Positions 11,611 through 33,269 of a stretch of 64,000 nt of DNA are shown one piece after another. The stretch comes from Pontibacter roseus DSM 17521 (lineage in GTDB: Bacteria > Bacteroidota > Bacteroidia > Cytophagales > Hymenobacteraceae), in NCBI RefSeq assembly GCF_000373265.1, contig NZ_KB890762.1, positions 940,833-1,004,832 on the forward strand, written 5' to 3'. A model generated the notes under the pieces. The model was given only the letters and a program-made list of their open reading frames with translations. It was not told the origin of the DNA and did not search any database. The position numbers were made by a program, and so were the translations under genes. Each line of letters opens with the position of its first letter. The first letter of the stretch is position 1.

Positions 11611-11640
11611 AAATGAAAAAAACCACAGCTGACGCTGTGG
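11611..11640 (-). terminator. Rho-independent terminator (minus strand)
   Basis: Stem CCACAGC / GCTGTGG with loop TGAC. On the minus strand it is followed by a run of seven or more T. It lies about 100 bases after the 11737-12258 gene. Confidence 0.8.
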
Positions 11641-11736
11641 CCTTTCTCAGATGGAAATTCAATACTAATGTATACAGCTGTATACGGTGGTTTTCGGAAT
11701 AAGTATTCAAGGGCCTTTTAAAACGGTACAATTTCA

Positions 11737-12258
11737 CTAGTACCTGTTTCCTGTGTCGCCGCTGCCGTAGCGGTCATCACCAAAGTCCCGGAACTCATCG
11801 GCGTTGCCATAGGAGGCATCGTGCCGGTAGCCAAAGTTGCCGCGGCTGTCAAAGTTCCGGTACATGTCGCCTTCCTCGGGATTGTCGTAGTTGGGGTTGT
11901 AGCCGGCGCTGTAGCGGTAGCGGGTACGCTCAAAATCGTTGGGGTCGGCGTGCAGCGGGTTGCCGCGCCGTACCTGGTCCAAGTCGTTTTCGGCACCGTA
12001 AGGTAGGCCATAATCGTCCTGGCGCGGTACACCGGTATAGTTGGTGGTGTCATACACTTGGTTGTAGTAATCTTCGCGCATGCCCTGGTAGCCGCCTCTG
12101 CGACCATATTCCTCGCTGTGCGGCGCGCGATAGCGCTGGCCCGGGCCGCTGTCTTCACCTCTCCAGTCTGGCTGGTTCCTGTCGAACCTCGGCTGTTCGG
12201 GATGCTGCTGATAGCGTCGGCTGAAGCCGCCGTAGTTATTCTCTCTGTTATCTCTCAT
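11737..12258 (-). CDS. Arg/Tyr/Asp/Gly-rich disordered protein 1
   Basis: 173 residues of low complexity with no recognised domain and no signal peptide. It contains no Lys, Cys or Ile; positive charge is supplied entirely by Arg, and Tyr is frequent, often in short YGRRGGY or RYRYSAGY clusters. Charge is mixed, so the chain is predicted to be disordered. It opens with MRDNRENN, nearly identical to the next gene upstream on the same strand, and both share the leader AAAGCTATGAGAGA, so they are paralogues. Arg-plus-Tyr sticker composition is known to promote phase separation and RNA association in other proteins; a role here is inference. Confidence 0.8.
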   Translation of the reverse strand: MRDNRENNYGGFSRRYQQHPEQPRFDRNQPDWRGEDSGPGQRYRAPHSEEYGRRGGYQGMREDYYNQVYDTTNYTGVPRQDDYGLPYGAENDLDQVRRGNPLHADPNDFERTRYRYSAGYNPNYDNPEEGDMYRNFDSRGNFGYRHDASYGNADEFRDFGDDRYGSGDTGNRY

Positions 12259-12280
12259 AGCTTTTGTCTTTAGAATGAAA

Positions 12281-12306
12281 CGGCAGGAGCCATGGGGCTC
12301 CCGCCG
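12281..12306 (-). terminator. Hairpin after disordered protein 2
   Basis: An 11 bp stem with one mismatch (CGGCAGGAGCC / GGCTCCCGCCG) lies between the two minus-strand disordered-protein genes. Its T-rich tail is weak (GTTTCATT), so it may attenuate rather than stop transcription. Confidence 0.45.
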
Positions 12307-12331
12307 CTGTAGTTTCTGCTTTCAATATAGA

Positions 12332-13018
12332 TTAATGGCGATTGTGCCGGTCTTCGTAGCGGTCATGGCGCCGTTCGCTTCCCTGGTTCCATCGGTCCAG
12401 GTTGCTGTAGCTGCTGTCCTCCCCAAAATGGTCTCTGCCCTCGGTGTGGTTGCGCCCTGCGAAGCCGCCACTGTAATCGTTGTCATACATGCGGTTGCCG
12501 TGCTCATAGCGGCGGTAGGACTCGTAGTCGCCCATGGAGGCGTGGCCCAGGTAGCTGTTCTGGTCCCGGTTGCCCCGGCTCACATCATGCCCAAAACTCT
12601 CATCAGGCATACCTCGGCGCTCACGGGAGCGGCCTCTCTCGCGCAGGTCATCGTAGTCTCGGTTGCTGTAGTCGGCACGCGGGTCATAGTGGCGGTCGGA
12701 GTTGTGGTCATCATTCGGCACATAAGTCATGCCATAGGGGTTGTCCTGTCCGCCCCGGTTCTGCCTGGTGTAGTCCTCGCCGCTGTACTGCGCGCCTCCT
12801 ACCTGGTAGCGCCCCTGCGGATAGGTATAGCCGTGGTCGGTGTTGGTGTTGAAGCTGCGGGTGTCATAGAAGTCGTCTTCCTGCTCGCCATACCCTGCGT
12901 TGAAGTTTGAATCAACGGTGTAGTTGCCGCGGTCCGAATTCTCCCCATGGTGGTGCCCATGCACCCAGCGCGGCTCTCTGTTACGGTTGTCACGGTTCTC
13001 TTCTCTGTTGTCTCTCAT
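12332..13018 (-). CDS. Arg/Tyr/Asp/Gly-rich disordered protein 2
   Basis: 228 residues with no Lys, Cys or Ile and very high Arg, Asp, Asn, Gly, Tyr and Ser. The N-terminus MRDNREENRDNRNREPRW is followed by a His cluster (VHGHHHGE). The middle carries an RS/RE-like segment (LRERGRSRERRG), and the C-terminus is again Arg/His/Asp-rich. No domain, coiled coil or signal is seen. It is a paralogue of the neighbouring 173-residue protein and is divergently transcribed from protein 3 across a 134 bp shared upstream region. The family is not recognised. Confidence 0.8.
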   Translation of the reverse strand: MRDNREENRDNRNREPRWVHGHHHGENSDRGNYTVDSNFNAGYGEQEDDFYDTRSFNTNTDHGYTYPQGRYQVGGAQYSGEDYTRQNRGGQDNPYGMTYVPNDDHNSDRHYDPRADYSNRDYDDLRERGRSRERRGMPDESFGHDVSRGNRDQNSYLGHASMGDYESYRRYEHGNRMYDNDYSGGFAGRNHTEGRDHFGEDSSYSNLDRWNQGSERRHDRYEDRHNRH

Positions 13019-13152
13019 AGCTTTTTGGGTTAAAAGTGTACATGCTTACTCCATGGTTCTACGGTGGCACCCTTGCTTAGGGTTAAACCCGGCTGCGTAA
13101 ACTCATACCGGAAAAGCCCGTTTATAAAGAGGAACTTAACAACCAGAAAGCT

Positions 13153-13830
13153 ATGGAAAGACATAATTGGCAGTACCGGGAAGGCTACCGCGACAGTCGC
13201 AGAGGCGACTTCCGCGACGACCGGAACCGCCCCGACGAATCGAGTTACCGCGGTGCCTATCGCCTGGACACCGACAGCAGGCACCGGAACGAAACCACCT
13301 TCGACGGCTTCGACATGAACGACAGAGGCACCCGCCAACAAGGCGGCGACTACGTGTTGCGCCGAAGCCGCAACCTGCAGGACAACGACGACTATACTCA
13401 AAACCAGTACCAGCAAAGCTACGGCGACAGCCGCGGCCAGCAGCAGTGGAGCGACCAGCGCCGCTCTGACCGCGAGGGTTTCGGAAGCCGCTACGGCGGG
13501 GCCGCAGGTATGGAAGACCGTAGGACCAGCTTTGGCGGCAGCCGCCAAGACGATGACAGACAGCGCTTCGGCGGAGGGGCCGGCAACTTCAACAACAACT
13601 ATGGACCAGACAGGTATAGCAACCGCCGCGGTGAGAACTATGGCAACATGGCCGGCTCGCTCAGCTTTGGGTATGACGGCGATTACAACTCAGACCCGGA
13701 CTACAACCGGCACTACAACCCGCTGAGTGGCGAGATGCGCAGCTACCGCGACCACTACACGGAGCGCCACCCACGCCGCTATGGTCCGCCAGACCGCACC
13801 GGCTCCAACCCCGACTATGACCGCTATTAG
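13153..13830 (+). CDS. Arg/Tyr/Asp/Gly-rich disordered protein 3
   Basis: 225 residues, again without a single Lys, Cys or Ile. RG/GG and Gln/Asn-rich blocks fill the first two thirds (RRSRNLQDNDDYTQNQYQQS, SRQDDDRQRFGGGAGNFNNN). A more regular Tyr-rich tail follows (FGYDGDYNSDPDYNRHYNP, SYRDHYTERHPRRYGPP). The start is preceded by AAAGCTATG, the same leader as its two minus-strand relatives. The opposite strand carries a long open frame here, but its Ala/Val-rich translation looks like a compositional shadow. Confidence 0.8.
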   Translation: MERHNWQYREGYRDSRRGDFRDDRNRPDESSYRGAYRLDTDSRHRNETTFDGFDMNDRGTRQQGGDYVLRRSRNLQDNDDYTQNQYQQSYGDSRGQQQWSDQRRSDREGFGSRYGGAAGMEDRRTSFGGSRQDDDRQRFGGGAGNFNNNYGPDRYSNRRGENYGNMAGSLSFGYDGDYNSDPDYNRHYNPLSGEMRSYRDHYTERHPRRYGPPDRTGSNPDYDRY

Positions 13831-13889
13831 GTATAGCCGTGGGACCAACACGATTCTAATAGAAGTGAATAAACCTAAAAAAGCAGATT

Positions 13890-14138
13890 ATGAACACAGA
13901 TAAGAATAAGGACAAACTCAAAAACGAGAACACTAACAAGACAGTGAACGAAGGCAACAAAGTACCCAACATCCACCCGACTGGAAAGAGAGAGACAGAT
14001 GACGTGAACTTCAGCTCCGAGGAGGAGGACCAGGCAGGCCGCATGAACACCAACCAGCCGAAGAGCGGTGGCCGCCAAGGAGGCAAAAGCGTGGAAGATG
14101 GCGGTCGTGATATGGGCAGCAGCGCCGGAAGCCACTAA
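13890..14138 (+). CDS. Small Lys/Asn/Gly-rich hydrophilic protein
   Basis: 82 residues with a Lys/Asn-rich N-terminus (MNTDKNKDKLKNENTNKTVN), an acidic patch (FSSEEEDQAG) and a Gly/Ser-rich C-terminus. It has only one aromatic residue and no Cys, the opposite of its three Lys-free neighbours. The composition resembles small stress-induced hydrophilins and KGG-type proteins, but no family is assigned. It lies 59 bases downstream of disordered protein 3 and shares a strong terminator, so the two are probably one unit. Confidence 0.75.
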   Translation: MNTDKNKDKLKNENTNKTVNEGNKVPNIHPTGKRETDDVNFSSEEEDQAGRMNTNQPKSGGRQGGKSVEDGGRDMGSSAGSH

Positions 14139-14160: not shown

Positions 14161-14195
14161 CAGAAGGCCAGGCTATACCTGGCCTTCTGCATTTT
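14161..14195 (+). terminator. Rho-independent terminator with motif in loop
   Basis: A 12 bp perfect stem (CAGAAGGCCAGG / CCTGGCCTTCTG) with loop CTATA is followed by CATTTTT. The loop and flanking bases spell CTATACC, the over-represented motif of this window. Confidence 0.92.
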
Positions 14196-14322: not shown

Positions 14323-15108
14323 ATGCTGCTTTCCATACGCTTCCTGCATTTTTTGCCTCTTTTCGCCTTGCTCCTCTTCGGGCCAGTCTCCTGCCTCGGC
14401 TCCGCTCCTGCCGGCGCCAGCCAGGCTATAGCGAAGCCCGACCACCAGCGCTGGACACAGCTCCTGCAAAAGCACGTGGCAGCCGATGGCGATGTGGACT
14501 ACAAAGGCATGAAGCAAGACCGGAAAGAGTTGCAGCTATACCTGAACCAGTTGAGCAAGGGTGTACCTGACCCCAAGACCTGGAGCCGCGAGGAGCAGCT
14601 GGCCTACTGGATTAACGCCTACAACGCCTACACCGTGAAGCTCATCGTAGACAATTACCCGCTCAAGAGCATCAAGGACCTGAATGCCACTGTCTCGGTG
14701 CCGCTCGTCAACACCATTTGGGACGATAAATTCATCAAGCTGGGGGGTAAGGAGTATTCTTTGAACGACATCGAACACCGCATCCTGCGCAAGGAGTTTG
14801 ACGAACCACGCATTCATTTCGCCGTCAATTGCGCCTCCAAGTCCTGCCCCAAACTGAGCCGGGAGGCATATACCGCCAGTAAACTGGAGAAACAACTGGA
14901 GGAGCAAACCCTTGGCTTCATCAACGACCCGAAACACAACCGCATCACGCCAGACAATCCGAAAGTTTCCGCTATCTTCGACTGGTTCGGCGGCGATTTC
15001 AAGAAGAAGGGCTCGCTGACCGATTTCATCAACCGGTACTCCAAGGTGAAAATCAAGCCCGGCGCCAACATCACCTTCCTGGACTATGACTGGAATTTGA
15101 ATGAGTAA
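14323..15108 (+). CDS. DUF547 domain protein, exported
   Basis: 261 residues. The signal region MLLSIRFLHFLPLFALLLFG ends near VSCLGSA, where Cys25 could be lipidated or a signal peptidase I site could be used. The DUF547 body shows LQKHVAADGDVDYKGM, the conserved WSREEQLAYWINAYNAYTVK and AVNCASKSCPKL. The family resembles thiol-protease/transglutaminase-like folds, but its activity is unproven. Its last bases overlap the start of the flavoprotein gene (ATGAGTAA), indicating translational coupling in a three-gene operon. Confidence 0.9.
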   Translation: MLLSIRFLHFLPLFALLLFGPVSCLGSAPAGASQAIAKPDHQRWTQLLQKHVAADGDVDYKGMKQDRKELQLYLNQLSKGVPDPKTWSREEQLAYWINAYNAYTVKLIVDNYPLKSIKDLNATVSVPLVNTIWDDKFIKLGGKEYSLNDIEHRILRKEFDEPRIHFAVNCASKSCPKLSREAYTASKLEKQLEEQTLGFINDPKHNRITPDNPKVSAIFDWFGGDFKKKGSLTDFINRYSKVKIKPGANITFLDYDWNLNE

Positions 15109-20808: not shown

Positions 20809-21165
20809 ATGGACATAACCAACCACACCCACCACAACCGCCACATCACGTTTGTACAAGGCCTTGTAAAGCAGCAGGCTTTTTCCGAGATACGCCAGGC
20901 GCTTGCCACGGCGCCACAAGCCGACGTCAGGCAGCTTTGGATAGACTGTTCCCACGTAGACCGCACCCAACTTACCACCAGCAACCTTTGCCTGTTTGTA
21001 GGCGAGCTTCTCAAATTCAAGAATGAACAGGTACAGGTCGTGCTCTGCGGTATGGACCAAACAACCGAAAAGCTATTCATCCTACTCAAACTGGATATGC
21101 TCTTCGGGAAAGCCCGTAGCCTGCAGGACGCACTCGTTCCAGATAAACAACTAGTTGCCGCCTGA
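20809..21165 (+). CDS. STAS-like protein 1
   Basis: 118 residues with the beta-alpha pattern of a STAS/anti-sigma-antagonist domain: RHITFVQGLVKQQAFSEIRQ, LWIDCSHVDRTQLTT, LLKFKNEQVQVVLCGM, LLKLDMLFGKARSLQDAL. The loop that normally carries the phospho-Ser (DSSGL type) reads DRTQLTT here. It would therefore not be a standard SpoIIAA-type switch unless a Thr serves. It is paralogous to the gene at 21636. No anti-sigma kinase or phosphatase is in the window. Confidence 0.72.
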   Translation: MDITNHTHHNRHITFVQGLVKQQAFSEIRQALATAPQADVRQLWIDCSHVDRTQLTTSNLCLFVGELLKFKNEQVQVVLCGMDQTTEKLFILLKLDMLFGKARSLQDALVPDKQLVAA

Positions 21166-21635: not shown

Positions 21636-22037
21636 ATGGACATTACAATTCAGACATACAACGGGCTAACAGTAGTTGTGGCACAAGGACTGCTTAGCGA
21701 GAGCACTTTCTCAGAAGTAAATGAGAAGGTCAGAAATGCTCCCACGGAAAACACAAAACAGGTATGGCTTGACTGCACACACTTACACCGCGTTCAGCTT
21801 ACACAGACCTGTTTCAGCTCATTTATCAGCGAATTGCTGCAACTCCGCAGGCAAGGTATAGAGGTCGTGCTGTTCGGGGTGAGTGGCCACACCCAGCACT
21901 TGCTGCGGCTACTTCACCTGGAGAAGATGTTCAGGCAGGTACCCACCCTGGAAGACGCCTACCTGCTCATCAATCAGCCGCAAGGAAATTCAGAAATAGA
22001 AGTGAGTGGGCCAAACCAGAATCTCGCCGTGGCATAA
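21636..22037 (+). CDS. STAS-like protein 2
   Basis: 133 residues. It aligns by eye with the upstream paralogue along its length: both begin MDIT, and share [LV]W[IL]DC[ST]H followed by [TV]QLT, [EL]LL.[FL] and a V[QE]VVL[CF]G strand. The phospho-acceptor loop is also altered (HRVQLTQ). A 20-residue Asn/Glu/Gly tail extends beyond the domain. The stop lies 29 bases before the esterase-like lipoprotein gene, so the two may be co-transcribed. Function unknown. Confidence 0.72.
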   Translation: MDITIQTYNGLTVVVAQGLLSESTFSEVNEKVRNAPTENTKQVWLDCTHLHRVQLTQTCFSSFISELLQLRRQGIEVVLFGVSGHTQHLLRLLHLEKMFRQVPTLEDAYLLINQPQGNSEIEVSGPNQNLAVA

Positions 22038-31523: not shown

Positions 31524-32198
31524 CATGCATGATGCTACTCCTGATTTAGGTTTCGTAGCGGGAGCTTTCCCAGTTGCTCGCTGAATCGTTTCATCGCTTC
31601 GCCTGTGCGGCGGGCACCTACTTTTTTCCTTGATGAAAAAGTAGGCAAAAAAAATCAAGGCGCTCCAAACTCGCTGAACGCTCGAACAGTGGAGCGCCAC
31701 AAAGTGCACCTGGCCCACGCCGCCGCTCTGTTGCTGCTGTTGTAAGTATGCTTTGCTATACCTGCCAGTGATAATTTGCTACAGCGCCTATACCTTAGAA
31801 AGAGCTATACCAGAAAGTCCCCCTTCGAAGGGGGCAGGGGGATGTTAATCGGTGCGCGGGTTCTGCACTAGAGAGGGAATCAATACCAGTCGCGCAGCCA
31901 GAGCCTGCAGCTAAGAAGTGTCCTATCCAATCCTCAGGTGGAGCGCGAGCGGCAGCCGATAGACAGGCATGATACACAGCGCGAGGCCAAAGGACGAAAC
32001 CCCCGCGGCTGGAGCGCTCAAGCTAGAGCCATGAAACGATAGGTATAGGAGCACCGGGAGAGCGCGGACTACGCCAGCAGCAGACTTGCAACGAGACTTG
32101 AATAAACGCTAAAGAAGTAGCAGCCGGCGACTATGAAGCATGCCAGATTTCTCGTTGCTACCGAAATGACAAGATTAGAATCAGTGAAACCATCAAAC
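31524..32198. other. Repeat-bearing intergenic region
   Basis: About 675 bases without a convincing gene. It contains the shortened copy of the composite repeat (31574-31761), a perfect palindrome CCCCCTTCGAAGGGGG at 31819-31834, and four GGTATA-type motifs. Frames in this region are repeat-derived. Sequence from 32133 is an alternative N-terminus of the radical SAM gene and is not favoured. Confidence 0.65.
31574..31761 (+). repeat. Composite non-coding repeat, copy 3 (short)
   Basis: Carries TTGCTCGCTGA, GCCTGTGCGGCGGGCACC, the CCTACTTTTTT/AAAAAGTAGG hairpin, ATCAAGGCGCTCC and ACAGTGGAGCGCCA, in the same order as the other two copies. The GTCATTCC-flanked half is missing. Confidence 0.85.
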
Positions 32199-33269
32199 AT
32201 GGACACTATGAAGGCAGAAGAATACTTGAAAGGACGCGGCGCGCAGTACAATCCCGCTAACCCATACCTCAAACAGGAATACGTGGCCGCACACATCGAG
32301 GGGCTGGACGAGCCGATGCTCTCCAACAGCAAAACGGAGTTCTTCACCGAGCACCCCAAGAAGATTGTGAATAAGGTGGACAGCCCGGACTTAGGTCTCA
32401 CCTATTCCATGAATCCCTACCAGGGCTGCGAGCACGGCTGCATCTACTGCTATGCCCGCAACACGCATCAATACTGGGGCTACGGCGCTGGTCTGGATTT
32501 CGAGCGGAAAATCATCGTCAAGGAAAATGCGCCGGAGGTGTTGGCCCGGCAACTGGAGAACCAGAAGTGGCAGGTGATGCCCATCATGCTAGCCGGCAAC
32601 ACCGACTGCTATCAGCCCATCGAGGCGAAGAAAAAGCTGACGCGCCGCATGCTGGAAGTGCTCCTGCAGTACCGCCACCCGGTGAGCATCATCACTAAAA
32701 ACGCGCTCATCCTCCGAGACCAGGACCTGCTGCAGCAACTCAATCAACTGGACCTGGTCCACGTGAACATCAGCATCACCACCCTGGATGAGCAGCTGCG
32801 ACAGAAACTGGAGCCCCGCACCGCCTCCAGCGTCAAACGCCTGCAGGTAGTGAAACAACTGGCAGATGCCGGTATACCTGTCAACGTGATGGTGGCCCCC
32901 ATCATTCCCGGCCTCAACGATTCCGAAATCCCGGCCATCATCAAAAGCGCGGCGGAGGCAGGTGCCAGCAGCGCCGCCTATACCATCGTGCGGCTCAACG
33001 GCAGCATCGGCCCCATCTTCGAAGACTGGATTCGGCAGGCCTTTCCCGACCGGGCAGACAAGGTGCTCAGCCAGATTGCGGACTGCCACGGCGGGCAGCT
33101 CAACGACAGCCGCTTCGGTACGCGCATGCACGGCGAGGGGAAGTTTGCCGAAGCGATAAGCAGGCTGTTCAAGATGAGCCGGAACAGGTACATGGCAGGC
33201 CGCAGCATGAAACCCTACAACTATAACCACTTCTGTACCAGAGCAGGTATACAGACCTCCCTGTTCTAA
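32199..33269 (+). CDS. PA0069-family radical SAM protein
   Basis: 356 residues from ATG 32199. The cluster motif CxxxCxxC is Cys77, Cys81 and Cys84 in GCEHGCIYCYARNTHQYWGY, a signature of the PA0069/Rv2578c group, often described as SplB-like. Other marks are GRGAQYNPANPY at the N-terminus and GNTDCYQPIEAKKKLTRR. The reaction is not established; a DNA-repair link has been suggested from similarity to spore photoproduct lyase. A frame open from 32133 would add 22 residues, but GRGAQYNPANPY conservation favours the later start. It shares a 22 bp terminator with the convergent Mn catalase. Confidence 0.92.
   Translation: MDTMKAEEYLKGRGAQYNPANPYLKQEYVAAHIEGLDEPMLSNSKTEFFTEHPKKIVNKVDSPDLGLTYSMNPYQGCEHGCIYCYARNTHQYWGYGAGLDFERKIIVKENAPEVLARQLENQKWQVMPIMLAGNTDCYQPIEAKKKLTRRMLEVLLQYRHPVSIITKNALILRDQDLLQQLNQLDLVHVNISITTLDEQLRQKLEPRTASSVKRLQVVKQLADAGIPVNVMVAPIIPGLNDSEIPAIIKSAAEAGASSAAYTIVRLNGSIGPIFEDWIRQAFPDRADKVLSQIADCHGGQLNDSRFGTRMHGEGKFAEAISRLFKMSRNRYMAGRSMKPYNYNHFCTRAGIQTSLF

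Follow-up and report, generated by a model that had tools for sequence, protein, structure and literature searches.

What would a bacterium gain from proteins that do without lysine, cysteine and isoleucine and are instead packed with arginine and tyrosine? The question is raised by four adjacent genes of Pontibacter roseus DSM 17521 (hereinafter designated A, B, C and D; Table 1), which lie in a 64,000-nt stretch of contig NZ_KB890762.1 (assembly GCF_000373265.1, positions 940,833 to 1,004,832; hereinafter the window). A preliminary description of the window had taken A, B and C for disordered, Arg/Tyr-rich proteins and the gene cluster for a possible condensate, desiccation- or radiation-protection locus. 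At its least speculative, our answer, which is drawn from sequence comparison, is that a promoter of the extracytoplasmic function (ECF) type, kept across species and apparently across genera, appears to control a dispersed set of proteins that have an unusual, disorder-prone composition in common. Going further, we hold it an even call that A–D form the core, genus-wide locus of an ECF-sigma stress regulon and that their disordered products act as protectants self-associating through Tyr and Arg.

A conserved pair of divergent promoters

An alignment of the B–C intergenic region from 28 loci reveals little conservation except for two pairs of boxes, one facing C and the other facing B. Toward C, AAC and CGTT boxes are present in all 28 regions including that of the window, separated by 16 nt in 26 regions and 17 nt in two, compared with a mean of 0.77 and a maximum of 3 in 200 sets of shuffled sequences. 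Toward B, TAACC-N16/17-CGTA is found in 25 of the 27 full-length regions, against a shuffle mean of 0.04 and a maximum of 1. The loci are related to one another, and neither box count is one of independent events.

The boxes of ECF promoters are typically 16–17 nt apart. AAC and CGT boxes are described as a hallmark of ECF promoters, and the AAC/CGTT combination as that of the general-stress factor EcfG (PMC8103513). Both promoters carry AAC at –35 and CGT at –10. The arrangement apparently extends to sister genera, where AAC-N15-18-CGT lies upstream of the gene for the long relative of C in all seven genomes examined out of 16, a count that carries no shuffle control.

Like proteins behind the same promoter elsewhere

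We used a strict C-type pattern, TAAACY-N15-CGTTWAWA, as a genome-wide probe, with the reversed pattern as control. The window's genome contains three exact matches and the control none; one match is that of C, and the other two end 34 and 39 nt before further Lys-free, Arg/Tyr/Gly-rich proteins of 223 and 256 residues. Across 50 Pontibacter genomes the pattern matches 89 times versus 21 for the control, with 38 matches at C and 51 elsewhere, all of which were inspected. A protein that qualifies by hydrophilicity and Gly content alone starts 23–50 nt downstream of 26 of the 51 non-C sites and lies on the opposite side of none (0/51). All 26 qualifying proteins, which come from 21 genomes, are Arg/Tyr/Gly-rich, lack Cys and contain at most 1.1% Lys. 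The rule is passed by none of the 53 other open reading frames (ORFs) of the window and none of the 121 other ORFs of 16 loci. This leaves 25 exact sites with no such protein downstream, a number close to the 21 that the control would predict, and several are possibly chance matches.

Among the other exact sites, four precede a gene for a ribosome-hibernation factor (Ribosomal_S30AE) that is nearly identical at its start to the one in the window's genome, which itself has a one-mismatch site in front. Two precede a possible 2'-5' RNA ligase (Pfam E value of 0.005, below the cut-off), one a DUF2267 protein and one (L084) an enzyme-like ordinary frame. In the window's genome, further one-mismatch sites precede a TerB protein and, by 47 nt, a 484-residue GYGSS/GYGSSQ repeat protein with 53 Tyr and neither Lys nor Cys (L091); a 390-residue protein of another species, with a similar FFGR-GETIS piece, stands behind an exact site. 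Three more exact sites precede proteins that look outer-membrane-like by eye (one, scanned over 70 residues, has no Pfam match). Tyr/Gly-rich repeats also resemble some structural matrix proteins, so that A–D might be imagined in the envelope or an extracellular matrix; we consider this very improbable, as no hydrophobic signal-peptide stretch is seen by eye at any of the four N-termini.

Since matches to the C promoter precede both like proteins and a hibernation factor, the A–D locus would be part of a dispersed regulon. The stress-protection idea of the preliminary description is thereby strengthened in one respect, because the promoter ties A–D to companions that such a role would lead one to expect, and corrected in another: 'locus' is too narrow a term when similar proteins stand behind the same promoter elsewhere in the genome. 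A B-type match also lies 66 nt before a 111-residue, Lys-rich, aromatic-poor hydrophilic protein resembling D (L097), which hints at a regulon common to the two composition classes.

Several observations weigh against the regulon reading. The opposite-side control is soft, given that at 37 of the 51 sites that side holds no frame of at least 40 residues. The 26 qualifying proteins are not independent events: 24 of them join one family at an E value of 1e-8 and two stand alone, and the count therefore reflects the conservation of a few regulon members; in addition, three (L080, L085 and L086) were known before the rule was fixed. Relaxing the pattern by one mismatch adds eight matches in the window's genome and eight for the control, which leaves the TerB and GYGSS targets hanging on single matches; five of the eight one-mismatch sites were judged chance-like. 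Genome-wide, the B-type pattern shows no enrichment (5 matches versus 6 for the control), and one of its matches (L099) falls inside a sigma-like gene. The sigma factor gene itself was not found, and no ECF gene is seen by eye downstream of the inspected sites. Outside Pontibacter, the boxes are absent from both D homologues examined; of three small genes neighbouring long C relatives, two lack them and the third has a loose match.

Locus layout and amino acid composition

The four genes look like two divergent operons, B-A and C-D, each with a terminator-like hairpin at its end (Table 1). Five such terminator sites are found in the region, compared with a shuffle mean of 3.1. In the B–A gap (window positions 12259–12331), a run of at least seven base pairs is predicted for 21 of the 25 other loci, and the stem sequences vary from species to species; as this hairpin lacks a long T-run, processing or partial termination is possible. 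Sigma-70-like promoters were considered and rejected, as the region gives two matches, no more than shuffled sequences do.

Table 1 Features of the A–D locus, in window coordinates. aa, residues.
Feature	Coordinates	Strand	Description
Promoter toward C-D, ECF-type	13098..13126	+	TAAAC-N16-CGTTTATA; ends 26 nt before the C start codon
Promoter toward B-A, ECF-type	13060..13086	-	TTAACC-N16-CCGTA
A	11737..12258	-	173 aa; Lys/Cys/Ile-free, Arg/Tyr-rich, predicted disordered
A motif	near C-terminus		nearly invariant block GYNPNYDNPEEGD-YR-FDSRGN-G-RHD--YG
B	12332..13018	-	228 aa; Lys/Cys/Ile-free, predicted disordered
B motifs			nearly invariant NSDRGNY, SYRRYE, YDNDY--GF--R
C	13153..13830	+	225 aa; Lys/Cys/Ile-free; longer relatives in sister genera
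C motif			invariant ENYGNMAGSLS-GYDG
D	13890..14138	+	82 aa; hydrophilic, Lys-rich, Tyr/Trp-free
D motifs			conserved PNI-P and DGG-D-GSSAGS
Hairpin between B and A	12279..12308	-	13 pairs in the window's predicted fold
Hairpin and T-run after A	11614..11649	-	intrinsic-terminator-like; likely end of B-A unit
Hairpin and T-run after D	14161..14189	+	intrinsic-terminator-like, 12 pairs; likely end of C-D unit

The coordinates and frames given in the preliminary description are correct, as is its central count: the 626 residues of A, B and C include no Lys, no Ile and no Cys. Arg numbers 24, 33 and 38 in A, B and C, respectively (14–17%), and Tyr 20, 21 and 21 (9–12%). The three genes use 57 Asn and 62 Tyr codons and not one for Lys or Ile; because Asn and Tyr codons are this common, the absence of Lys and Ile is no effect of base composition, and GC or codon pressure is ruled out as its source. 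D is indeed the reverse, with nine Lys, a single Phe and neither Tyr nor Trp. Gly makes up 12.7%, 11.4%, 12.9% and 13.4% of A, B, C and D, the grand average of hydropathy (GRAVY) is –1.86, –2.03, –1.98 and –1.70, and RGG occurs once in A, once in B and not at all in C or D. Among 56 ORFs of the window, picked mechanically as non-overlapping frames of at least 100 residues (a limit below which D falls), only A, B and C combine a GRAVY below –1 with more than 6% Gly.

The window contains exactly three copies of the leader AAAGCTATG, one at each of the A, B and C starts; the sharing reported earlier thus holds within the window, and the leader is not strictly retained before orthologues. It is also carried by the GYGSS-repeat protein described above. 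The starts of A and B are similar, as had been noticed, with no detectable homology beyond them: hhalign gives probabilities of 0.2, 0.7 and 0.2% for the pairwise profile comparisons of A, B and C, on which recent duplication is rejected and a single paralogous family finds no support. Their profiles being unlike, the common make-up would be convergent or the relic of a very old duplication.

Long open frames also exist antisense to these genes (for example 12275–12910 on the + strand), and the A–D frames could in principle be by-products of a biased strand. We give this next to no credence: A–D are conserved at the protein level and carry conserved promoter boxes, 44–51% of their differences fall at third positions, and the median ratio of nonsynonymous to synonymous substitution rates (dN/dS), taken from pairs with dS below 1, is 0.079 for A (4 pairs), 0.080 for B (12), 0.176 for C (26) and 0.084 for D (36). 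The frames are under purifying selection, and spurious ORFs are ruled out.

Conservation, predicted disorder and distribution

Compositional bias is shared by the orthologues (25 distinct A, 27 distinct B and 27 distinct C sequences, and 27 of D). Lys and Ile range over 0–3 and 0–3 residues in A, 0–6 and 0–4 in B, and 0–4 and 0–3 in C, and Cys is absent except from one A and one B sequence, whose starts are possibly over-long. Mean contents in A–C are 0.4–0.5% Lys, 9–12% Tyr and 14–15% Arg, and both Tyr and Trp average 0.0% in D. The strict absence of Lys, Cys and Ile in the window is thus the extreme of a conserved depletion.

A and B are predicted to be disordered, in agreement with the preliminary description: AlphaFold2 models of A and B, made with 26 and 27 sequences, have a mean predicted local distance difference test score (pLDDT) of 45 and 44, respectively, with no residue at 70 or above. 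Tyr columns are conserved at 0.85, 0.81 and 0.70 in A, B and C, compared with 0.68, 0.66 and 0.54 for Arg. A role carried by Tyr and by composition has to be set against other features of the same alignments. In B, both Trp and Phe equal or surpass Tyr in conservation, as does Leu in C; the single Trp of A does not. The nearly invariant motifs also exceed what a purely compositional role requires, with blocks that hardly change in each family (DSRGN in A, SDRGNY in B and ENYGNMAGSLS in C).

Such blocks could mean that the proteins are scaffolds that bind specific partners, be it ribosomes, RNA or an enzyme, through short motifs and fold on binding. The long invariant blocks of A and C, the recognizability of the C block in other genera and the ribosome-hibernation factor behind the same promoter are all consistent with scaffolding. 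We nevertheless find it improbable, as neither A nor B has a predicted fold on its own or a convincing relative in the PDB (by sequence, one match at an E value of 0.85 for A and none for B), and no partner is known.

The preliminary description had called for a check of homologues and synteny. In 150 genomes of the family, B is matched in 50 of 50 Pontibacter genomes and by nothing else below an E value of 0.39, and C and D are matched in the same 50 of 50. All 16 named relatives of C are from Pontibacter, and the layout of these 16 loci is constant in gene order, with A and B sharing a strand opposite to that of C; D is recovered in 15 by BLAST and in 16 by profile. Of the outcomes named beforehand as fatal to the preliminary description, a folded domain is not predicted for A and B, and decay of the frames in sister species is not seen, given the 50 of 50 genomes with B and a dN/dS of 0.08–0.18. 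In a sample of the order, A and B occur in 6 of 291 genomes each, all Pontibacter.

C reaches further. Outside Pontibacter, 16 of the 150 family genomes match it (one only at an E value of 0.003), mostly as open frames of about 330–400 residues that carry RG-YR-like and NYGNMAG-LS-like pieces; five of these long relatives contain 0–0.6% Lys. A profile of the long form matches 9 of 281 genomes in the order sample. D has weak matches in 11 genomes of two other genera. This Pontibacter and its sister species keep a set of Arg/Tyr-rich, Lys-poor disordered proteins that appear, as far as sequence can tell, to be switched on together.

Comparison with known systems and possible function

Pfam, NCBIfam and PHROGs contain no family matching A–D (DUF5452, at an E value of 3.4 against D, is far under the cut-off), and identity with a known family or phage protein is rejected on this null result in the three libraries. 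The L086 protein and a long C relative (L063) likewise have no Pfam match. The accessible portions of the literature on disordered, lysine-free or tyrosine-rich proteins in Pontibacter, Hymenobacter or Bacteroidota contain no description of A–D; those of a Pontibacter gamma-radiation RNA-seq study name no gene that can be mapped to them (PMC4460873), and those of a review of bacterial phase separation say nothing on such proteins (PMC10534466). We regard these as stress-type disordered proteins with an Arg-Tyr, Lys-free grammar and apparently a regulon of their own.

The nearest class by composition is that of the hydrophilins, defined by make-up rather than descent. Hydrophilins, which have more than 6% Gly, have been linked with osmotic stress and dehydration (PMC4190154) and with desiccation tolerance in Acinetobacter (PMC13232832). 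A–D fit this class: all four exceed 6% Gly (11–13%) and are highly hydrophilic, with GRAVY (–1.7 to –2.0) standing in for the original index. Like hydrophilins and stress proteins resembling the late embryogenesis abundant (LEA) type (the hydrophilins of Escherichia coli and yeast, and DtpA and DtpB of Acinetobacter), they are Gly-rich, predicted disordered and probably part of a stress regulon. By description, however, the absence of Lys, Ile and Cys together with 9–12% Tyr and 14–17% Arg sets A–C apart, and only D has the Lys/Gly/Asn/Ser make-up. A–D as ordinary hydrophilins, soluble shields that hold water and prevent other proteins from aggregating without any condensate of their own, is a reading that we judge unlikely, if well short of negligible: so much Tyr and the exclusion of Lys seem unusual for a mere shield, and Tyr ranks among the best conserved residues.

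Self-association through Tyr and Arg has its closest parallel in the FET proteins FUS, EWS and TAF15, in which Tyr and Arg are set among Gly/Ser/Asn spacers and act by sticker-and-spacer logic. A–C share this pattern, with A and B predicted to be disordered, and the GYGSS-repeat protein is a candidate co-target in the same genome. They differ in having few RGG motifs (0–1 each) and in being Asp-rich and bacterial. FET-type RNA-binding domains and RGG boxes are not found, there being no Pfam domain in A–D, and no evidence points to shared descent with FET proteins.

With the EcfG general stress regulon, the promoter toward C shares AAC at –35 and CGTT at –10, with a spacing of 16–17 nt and stress-like companions. 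In Bacteroides, genes of stationary phase and of oxidative stress are preceded by non-canonical promoters linked to ECF factors, with TGTT at –10 (PMC12596196), compared with CGTT at C. The accessible portions of this ECF literature make no mention of disordered proteins as main conserved targets (PMC8103513, PMC12596196).

Returning to self-association as the preferred reading, we propose the following model. A group IV (ECF) sigma factor would read the two divergent B–C promoters and the matching promoters elsewhere, becoming active as growth stops or as the cell dries or is oxidized. The cell would then accumulate disordered, Cys-free, Lys-poor polyampholytes, in which scattered Tyr (and Arg) side chains may serve as stickers among Gly/Asn/Ser/Asp spacers. 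By associating with one another, and probably also with ribosomes or RNA, these proteins could form a protective phase of soft consistency, with D as a hydrophilic companion without stickers. The sequences themselves show the conservation, the selection, the predicted disorder of A and B, the shared promoter boxes and the genes found with them; we infer the sigma factor, the stress that induces it, the self-association and the protective effect. Growth arrest or general stress is suggested by the promoter type and its companions (the hibernation factor, TerB and DUF2267), self-association by Tyr conservation and Arg/Tyr content, and protection on drying by the compositional class, that of the hydrophilins (PMC4190154, PMC13232832). 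Confidence falls stepwise from the promoter set to stress, to self-association and finally to drying protection.

The most likely role would accordingly be protection during growth arrest or drying through Tyr/Arg-driven self-association, and the apparently co-expressed Arg/Tyr-rich set perhaps protects the cell at such times. A bolder version would see an ECF-sigma programme dedicated mainly, as far as its conserved output goes, to Lys/Cys/Ile-depleted Arg-Tyr sticker proteins. Arisen separately or diverged long ago, these would condense the cytoplasm together with RNA or hibernating ribosomes and so let the cell survive drying, as a domain-free bacterial counterpart of FET-type condensates in the form of a regulon. 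We hold this version tentatively, as possible and somewhat doubtful. Taken as a whole, the interpretation in the preliminary description is partly supported.

What had been a compositional curiosity becomes a defined and testable regulon, in which half of the non-C promoter matches in 50 genomes (26/51) mark Lys-poor proteins of disordered type. If A–C condense, they would offer a clean bacterial system for asking whether Arg-Tyr stickers protect drying cells, since each species supplies its own natural variants and a folded domain that might confound the answer is not known. Lys and Cys are prone to chemical damage and modification, and why cells that may be dormant should make proteins avoiding both is a question that these families could answer. 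We know of no pupylation in Pontibacter. Lysine deserts and escape from Lys-directed degradation are discussed for bacteria with pupylation (PMC10665810).

Neighbouring genes

Beside D lies a DUF547 gene (14323–15108) that tblastn finds in one of 16 sister loci, followed by a flavoprotein gene found in 13 of the 16. A protein with a KGRGAQ(Y/F)N motif, which we take to be of the radical SAM type, is encoded near several sister-genus C relatives (L054, 7372–8514; L055, 861–1964; L056, 1023–2126; L059, 1801–2865; L063, 7183–8286) and also in the window, at 32133–33269, 18 kb from C. Elsewhere in the window, 20809–21165 and 21636–22037 encode tandem small proteins with similar starts (MDIT...), which we presume may be STAS-like.

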